Shown in pieces: positions 28,089 to 29,610 of a DNA stretch of 32,166 nt. Made by a program: the position numbers and the translations under genes. The DNA lies in NCBI GenBank assembly GCA_003557645.1, contig PWNV01000016.1, forward strand, positions 1-32,166, written 5' to 3'. A model generated the notes under the pieces. The model made no database searches, was not told the DNA's origin, and worked only from the letters and a program-made list of their open reading frames with translations. How positions within the stretch are numbered: position 1 is the stretch's first letter; every line of letters starts with the position of its first letter. The DNA comes from Candidatus Nealsoniibacteriota bacterium (GTDB lineage: Bacteria; Patescibacteriota; Minisyncoccia; Minisyncoccales; PWPS01).

Positions 28089-29595
28089 AATTTTGAGAGT
28101 TTGATCCTGGCTCAGGATGAACGCTGGCGGCGTGGTTTAGGCATGCAAGTCAAGGGGTCTCGCTTTTGCGAGATAACCGGCGGACGGGTTAGTAACACGT
28201 GGGAACATACCCTTAAGACGGGGATAATTCTGAGAAATCAGAGCTAATACCCGATAGTCTCTTTTGATGAAAATCTTAAGAGTAAATGGAATTTTTTCGC
28301 TTAAGGATTGGCCTGCGGCTTATCAGCTAGAAGGTACGGTAATGGCGTACCTTGGCTATGACGAGTAGGCGGGGTTAGCGCCTGATCGCCAACAAGGGCA
28401 CTGAGACACGGGCCCTACTCCTACGGGAGGCAGCAGTCGAGAATCATCCACAATGGGGGAAACCCTGATGGTGCGACGCCGCGTGTTTGAAGAAGCCCTA
28501 CGGGGTGTAAAAAACTTTTCTGGAGGAAGAAGATATGTTCTTTCGAGGGCATATTTGACTGTACTTCAGGAATAAGGGGGTGCCAATCCTGTGCCAGCAG
28601 CAGCGGTAATACAGGACCCCCAAGCGTTATCCGGTTTCATTGGGCGTAAAGCGTTTGTAGGCGGTTTATTAAGTTTCCTGTTAAATTTTCAGAGCTCAAC
28701 TCTGAAAGTGCGGGAAAAACTGATAGACTAGAGGGAGTTAGAGGCTGGCGGAACGGTCGGTGTAGGGGTGGAATCCGTTGATATCGACCGGAACACCAAA
28801 AGCGAAGGCAGCCAGCTGGGGCAACCCTGACGCTGAGAAACGAAGGCATGGGGAGAGAAGAGGATTAGATACCCTCGTATTCCATGCTGTAAACGATGGA
28901 CACTAGCTATTTGAAGTGTCGACCCTTCAAGTGGCGAAGCTAACGCATTAAGTGTCCCGCCTGGGAAGTACGGCCGCAAGGCTAAAACTCAAAGGAATAG
29001 ACGGGGACTCACAAAAGCGGTGGATCATGTGGCTTAATTCGACGCTACGCGAGGGATCTTACCAGGGCTTGACATCTAGACGAAAGTCGCTGGAAACAGT
29101 GACCTTTCTTCGGAACGGCTAGACAGGTGTTGCATGGCTGTCGTCAGTATGTGCCGTGAGGTGCACGCTTAAATGCGGTAACATACGCAACCCCTATCCT
29201 ATGTTTTATATGTCATGGGAGACTGCCCGGGACAACTGGGAGGAAGGTGGGGATGACGCCAAGTCAGCATGACCCTTATGCTCTGGGCTGCACACATGAT
29301 ACAATGGTCGGTACAACGGGTCGCGAAAGCGTAAGCTGGAGCTAATCCTTAAAGCCGGCCCAAGTTCGGATTGAGGTCTGGAACTCGACCTCATGAAGTC
29401 GGAATCGCTAGTAATCGCCAATCATCAACGTGGCGATGAATACTTCCCTGAGTCTTGTACTCACTGCCCATCACGCCAAGCGAGCTGGAAATACCCGAAG
29501 CATTGCCTTATGGCAGTACCACGGTAGAGTCAGTGAGAGGGGCGAAGTTGTAACAAGGCACCGGTAGCGGAAGCTGTCGGTGGAACAATTAACTT
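28089..29595 (+). rRNA. rrs: 16S ribosomal RNA, divergent; ends approximate
   Basis: GAGAGTTTGATCCTGGCTCAG; CCTACGGGAGGCAGCAG; GTGCCAGCAGCAGCGGTAATAC; GGATTAGATACCC; GTAACAAGG; GGAA tetraloop of h45. Confidence 0.96.
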
Positions 29596-29610
29596 TTACA
29601 GAAGGTCGAT

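Follow-up and report, generated by a model that had tools for sequence, protein, structure and literature searches.

The anti-Shine-Dalgarno (ASD) motif CCUCC has very likely been genuinely lost from the 16S rRNA of an order-sized clade of bacteria to which the organism studied here belongs, within a class in which the loss probably occurred several times, and translation initiation in this clade is very likely independent of the Shine-Dalgarno (SD) sequence. The gene concerned lies in a stretch of 32,166 nucleotides (contig PWNV01000016.1 of assembly GCA_003557645.1, Candidatus Nealsoniibacteriota), which is called the window below, and all the features described here are on its forward strand. 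Few parts of bacterial rRNA are as strongly conserved as the ASD. In E. coli, single changes in the ASD are dominant negative (PMC8710568).

16S rRNA Gene and Its 3' End

The 16S rRNA gene (rrs) occupies positions 28089 to 29595 and matched the Rfam model RF00177 from end to end (1412.6 bits, model positions 1 to 1533). The host genome is a draft of 596 kb in 22 contigs, with a completeness of 98.5% and a contamination of 4.25%, and the bacterium is probably symbiotic. This gene is the only 16S rRNA gene in the whole 596 kb; a second rrs with a normal 3' end, which the earlier note had proposed to look for, was sought in the genome and none was found.

Helix 45 is intact at 29560 to 29581 and has the GGAA loop (ACCGGTAGCGGAAGCTGTCGGT), as had been described from the sequence before. 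The 3' tail that follows it, at 29582 to 29597, reads GGAACAATTAACTTTT in place of the expected GGATCACCTCCTTT, and the ASD is absent, which agrees with the central claim of the earlier note. CCTCC occurs nowhere across the entire gene and its trailer, and the shorter CCTC and CTCC have zero occurrences in the tail and trailer from 29578 to 29800. The mature 16S rRNA would end near position 29595, at about ...GGAACAAUUAACUUU.

The ASD-less tail is located within the processing stem of the pre-16S rRNA, in which the 5' arm at 28058 to 28085 pairs with the 3' arm at 29700 to 29726. A stem of 29 bp had been claimed; the stem itself was found, whereas its length is 27 to 28 bp including G-U pairs. 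The fold gave z = −11.2 when the 16S body was swapped for an artificial loop.

In the decoding centre, the 5' strand GTACTCACTGCCCATC (29457 to 29472) carries the changes A1396U, C1400U and G1405A, and in the 3' strand GAAGTTGTAACAAGG (29544 to 29558) U1496 pairs with A1405, where the positions follow the E. coli numbering. The pair 1405-1496 of helix 44 is A-U and not G-C, both sides having changed (G1405A and C1496U). The same double change recurs in three other sequences, L023, L047 (the family relative G002) and L100. The decoding-centre changes overlap a widely used 16S primer site.

Distribution of the Motif among Relatives

The placement of the genome in the Parcubacteria/Paceibacteria (CPR) comes from its relatives; the order and class levels used here are group codes of the genome collection, tied to Paceibacteria through named relatives. 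The named records that share this type of 16S end include Staskawicz-, Lipton-, Harrison-, Niyogi-, Jorgensen-, Wolfe-, Nealson- and Lloydbacteria, among others. Some of the pattern matches in ordinary bacteria were due to eukaryotic 18S contamination or to chance.

When the 16S 3' ends of the relatives were compared, a check that the earlier note had suggested, CCTCC was found in none of the 35 relatives at the order level whose 3' end could be read, which belong to many families; the closest sequence was ACCTCA, and the typical tails are GGATCACTACATTTT and GGATCAATTAATTT. The 16S ends listed for members of the phylum that fall outside the class have CCTCC or a near variant of it. The absence of the motif is not due to chance, because the other bacteria of the phylum have CCTCC at a fixed position, where none of the 35 order relatives has it.

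In a class-level sample of 293 genomes, the end was readable (helix 45 followed by GGANNA) in 150, and helix 45 was followed by the intact motif GGANNACCTCC in 61. About 88 genomes were without the exact motif after one chance match had been removed; some of them have one-base variants such as GGATCATCTCC, and many have nothing recognisable. Intermediate tails, GGATCATCTCC, GGATCACTTCT and GGATAACCTCA, were seen in L293, L294, L045 and other members of the class. These tails look like steps in the decay of the ASD and could help to date the losses.

The main 16S tree was determined from 82 sequences with the tail excluded, and the order of the window forms a single ASD-less clade in it (support 100/99). 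Five changes of the ASD state were counted in the class on this tree, of which at least three are forced by supported branches, with five to seven in the bootstrap trees and nine in an earlier, rougher tree of 100 rows; this count is taken from 16S alone, with several deep forks poorly resolved, odd rows in both trees, an outgroup that is not cleanly separated and one row whose branch is unreliable. Repeated loss is the simplest reading because the outgroups have the ASD; the ancestor of the class most likely had it, and the motif was probably lost several times within the class. We consider it rather probable that Paceibacteria lost the ASD repeatedly and that one order of many families has been SD-independent since its common ancestor, while its mRNAs lost the SD in parallel and acquired no pairing in its place. 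If this is true, the order ranks among the largest known clades of bacteria without the ASD.

SD Motifs Upstream of Start Codons

The regions upstream of start codons were analysed in the window and 22 further stretches of DNA, using open reading frames with one plausible ATG start, where the starts were inferred and not taken from proteomics. In the window genome, GGAG or GAGG occurs at −18 to −4 in 10 of 208 genes, fewer than the 21 and 18 counted in control windows lying farther from the start, and AGGA is depleted (9 vs 23). Together, AGGA, GGAG and GAGG precede 15 of the 208 starts (7%), which is not above the control; this value is a motif count, whereas the published category-iv measure is thermodynamic. 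In the other ASD-less genomes, the same upstream test likewise gave no enrichment of SD motifs.

In the ASD-intact relatives of the class, GGAG or GAGG was found in 23 of 169 upstream windows against 4 and 3 in the controls. GAGG (23 against 3.2 expected) and GGAG (21 against 4.0) are the two most enriched tetramers in these relatives, for which fewer genes were available, and they peak at −12 to −9 before the start codons. The detection of the SD in the ASD-intact relatives indicates that the method is able to find it. The pooled comparison of genomes with and without the ASD gave an odds ratio of 3.2 (p = 1.2 × 10−4); the contrast is real but modest, as the ASD-intact relatives use the SD sparingly, at about 14% of starts. 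The SD is gone where the ASD is gone, and in the window genome both are absent together. The SD-independent initiation that had been proposed from the 16S 3' end alone is supported by this contrast between the window genome and the members of the class that keep the ASD.

Alternative Explanations

An assembly error, a chimera or a decayed pseudogene could give a 3' end of this kind, and the draft state and the contamination of the assembly are in favour of such an artefact, as is an exact-match scan of JGI metagenomes, in which no independent copy of the 16S 3' end was found; a looser scan there gave only a distant ASD-containing relative with an identical helix 45. However, the SSU model is matched over its full length, the gene is enclosed by the processing stem, the compensated A1405-U1496 pair is common to L047 and L100, the same type of tail occurs in 35 order relatives that were each assembled separately, and the mRNAs are without SD motifs. 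An artefact is extremely improbable, and the genuine loss of the ASD from the 16S rRNA gene of the window is confirmed as far as a comparison of sequences can do so. An rRNA pseudogene, against which the earlier note had also argued, was rejected in view of the full RF00177 match, the stem, the compensated pair, the unbroken core structure and the absence of a second intact copy. The ASD might instead have been replaced, with the new tail AAUUAACUUUU pairing with a new upstream motif. The 4-mers complementary to the tail are in slight excess (710 against 632 in shuffled sequences), TTAATT occurs upstream 13 times against 5.5, and the mean duplex energy has z = −3.9 relative to mononucleotide shuffles, all of which would fit such a pairing. 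However, the tail binds the upstream windows no better than the control windows (−2.09 vs −2.04 kcal mol−1), the enrichment of TTAA and TAAA extends to relatives whose tails differ and is consistent with TAA stop codons lying upstream, and the tails vary freely between relatives. A replaced ASD is very unlikely on this evidence, while a minor pairing of the tail through the weakly enriched TTAATT is possible.

It is also unlikely, if somewhat less so, that the ASD became unneeded because most genes are leaderless. An exact TATAAT at −14 to −12, which fits transcripts starting near the AUG, is enriched in the other ASD-less genomes (12 vs 2.8), but it is equally enriched in the ASD-intact relatives (7 vs 1.3) and is not enriched in the window genome (3 vs 2.5). 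Moreover, many genes of the window follow one another in the same orientation with hardly any space between them or none, and the inner genes of an operon cannot be leaderless. The enrichment of TATAAT in genomes with the ASD and in the other genomes without it suggests that the phylum in general has some leaderless genes.

Translation Initiation without the ASD

Since the ASD is missing, the ribosome cannot place the mRNA by SD:ASD pairing. The leader is A-rich in the window genome, with A at 62% of starts at −3 and at 59% at both −4 and −5, and the structure near the starts is weak (mean MFE of −1.9 vs −3.6 and −3.8). IF3 and an S1-like protein with four S1 domains are encoded. With the genuine loss of the ASD as the preferred reading, start codons would be chosen by means of the accessible A-rich leader, the initiator tRNA, IF3 and S1, the way Bacteroidota without the SD do it, and some genes may be leaderless. 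Out-of-frame AUG codons near the starts are avoided (30 against 58 expected); as a signal of ASD loss this avoidance is uninformative, because it is also seen in control windows and in genomes with the ASD.

A bS21-like protein of 72 residues is encoded in the window genome (E = 1e-4, below the Pfam cut-off), and its gene has no SD before its own start. By a hand tally, bS21 is present in about three quarters of the class genomes with the ASD and about two thirds of those without it, and the loss of bS21 was rejected as a correlate of ASD loss because the protein is frequent in both. An occlusion of the ASD by bS21, bS18 and bS6, as in Bacteroidota, does not describe this case, in which the ASD itself is absent although bS21 is encoded.

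Era binds GAUCACCUCC during 30S assembly, and most CPR have lost it according to a review (PMC10582724). The result for the class agrees: Era was above the cut-off in 1 of the 293 genomes, and that match resembles a tandem GTPase. Without the Era GTPase and its reading of GAUCACCUCC in 30S assembly, the motif may have been freed from a second constraint. The loss of Era would be permissive at most and was rejected as the direct cause, because Era is missing class-wide, also from the ASD-intact members.

Comparison with Known Systems

Bacteria without the ASD are already known, and the window adds a member to them; what is new is the breadth of the loss, which is order-wide and recurrent in the class. 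Amin et al. listed 128 taxa without the ASD (PMC6107228), and a survey of 2024 reported organisms without both CCUCC and the SD, including Candidatus Wolfebacteria GW2, Campbellbacteria, SR1 and Peribacter riflensis, so that two Parcubacteria genomes are among the ASD-less bacteria already in print (PMC10783764). The organisms of the survey likewise lack CCUCC behind helix 45 and have SD motifs upstream of few genes or none, but single genomes were described there, whereas the present case comprises a whole order of many families, recurrence in the class and intact sister lineages. The window genome falls in category iv of that survey: CCUCC is absent after helix 45, the loss is common to the relatives and to the sole rrs, and few genes have an SD. 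Category iii ('SD-abundant lacking CCUCC', with an altered working ASD) was rejected, as the pairing of the tail is no stronger than in the controls. In the literature search, which covered published open-access papers, no description of order-wide, recurrent ASD loss in Paceibacteria was found, and the claim of breadth is provisional to that extent.

The ASD-less Flavobacteriia (Chryseobacterium, Riemerella and Weeksella; PMC6107228, PMC10783764) likewise have 16S rRNA without the ASD and mRNAs without the SD, but they belong to an unrelated phylum, from which the Paceibacteria differ by their reduced genomes and the lack of a recognisable Era. The SD-independent initiation of Flavobacterium johnsoniae (PMC6847099, PMC8710568) likewise involves an A-rich upstream region with A at −3 and low structure at the start; however, F. 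johnsoniae keeps the ASD and the organism of the window does not. Carsonella, Hodgkinia and Zinderia, symbionts with extreme reduction, also combine ASD loss with a reduced genome. They are separate cases of insect endosymbionts, whereas the present clade is large and its rRNA is well preserved apart from this loss.

A large ASD-free clade beside relatives that keep the motif is a useful natural experiment. Its comparison with these relatives could test what holds the motif in place, whether mRNA pairing, Era-dependent assembly or bS21, and by what means a start codon is selected when the ASD is missing. For the group of the window, gene finders that score the SD rest on a false assumption, and the same false assumption applies to the heterologous expression of CPR genes.

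Further Observations on the 16S rRNA Genes

In several members of the order (G030, G068 and others), the 16S 3' end lies about 0.9 kb past the match to the SSU model, and these genes appear to be interrupted by inserts. Contigs C2 and C6 of G210 carry two unlike 16S ends, of which one is without the ASD and the other is canonical, and this points to contamination in that genome.

The trailer of the window 16S contains a conserved hairpin, AAAGTTAAAATCTCGAATTCGGGTTTTAACTTT, at 29612 to 29644, for which a search against Rfam reported no family. In an alignment of 29 sequences, 11 of its 13 predicted pairs showed pair-preserving double changes, as in a covarying helix. The hairpin has an apical GAATTC, is kept across the order and usually has GTCGAY just before it. 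It is also present in the ASD-intact relative L352, which indicates that it predates the loss of the ASD, and it is likely to be a processing element.
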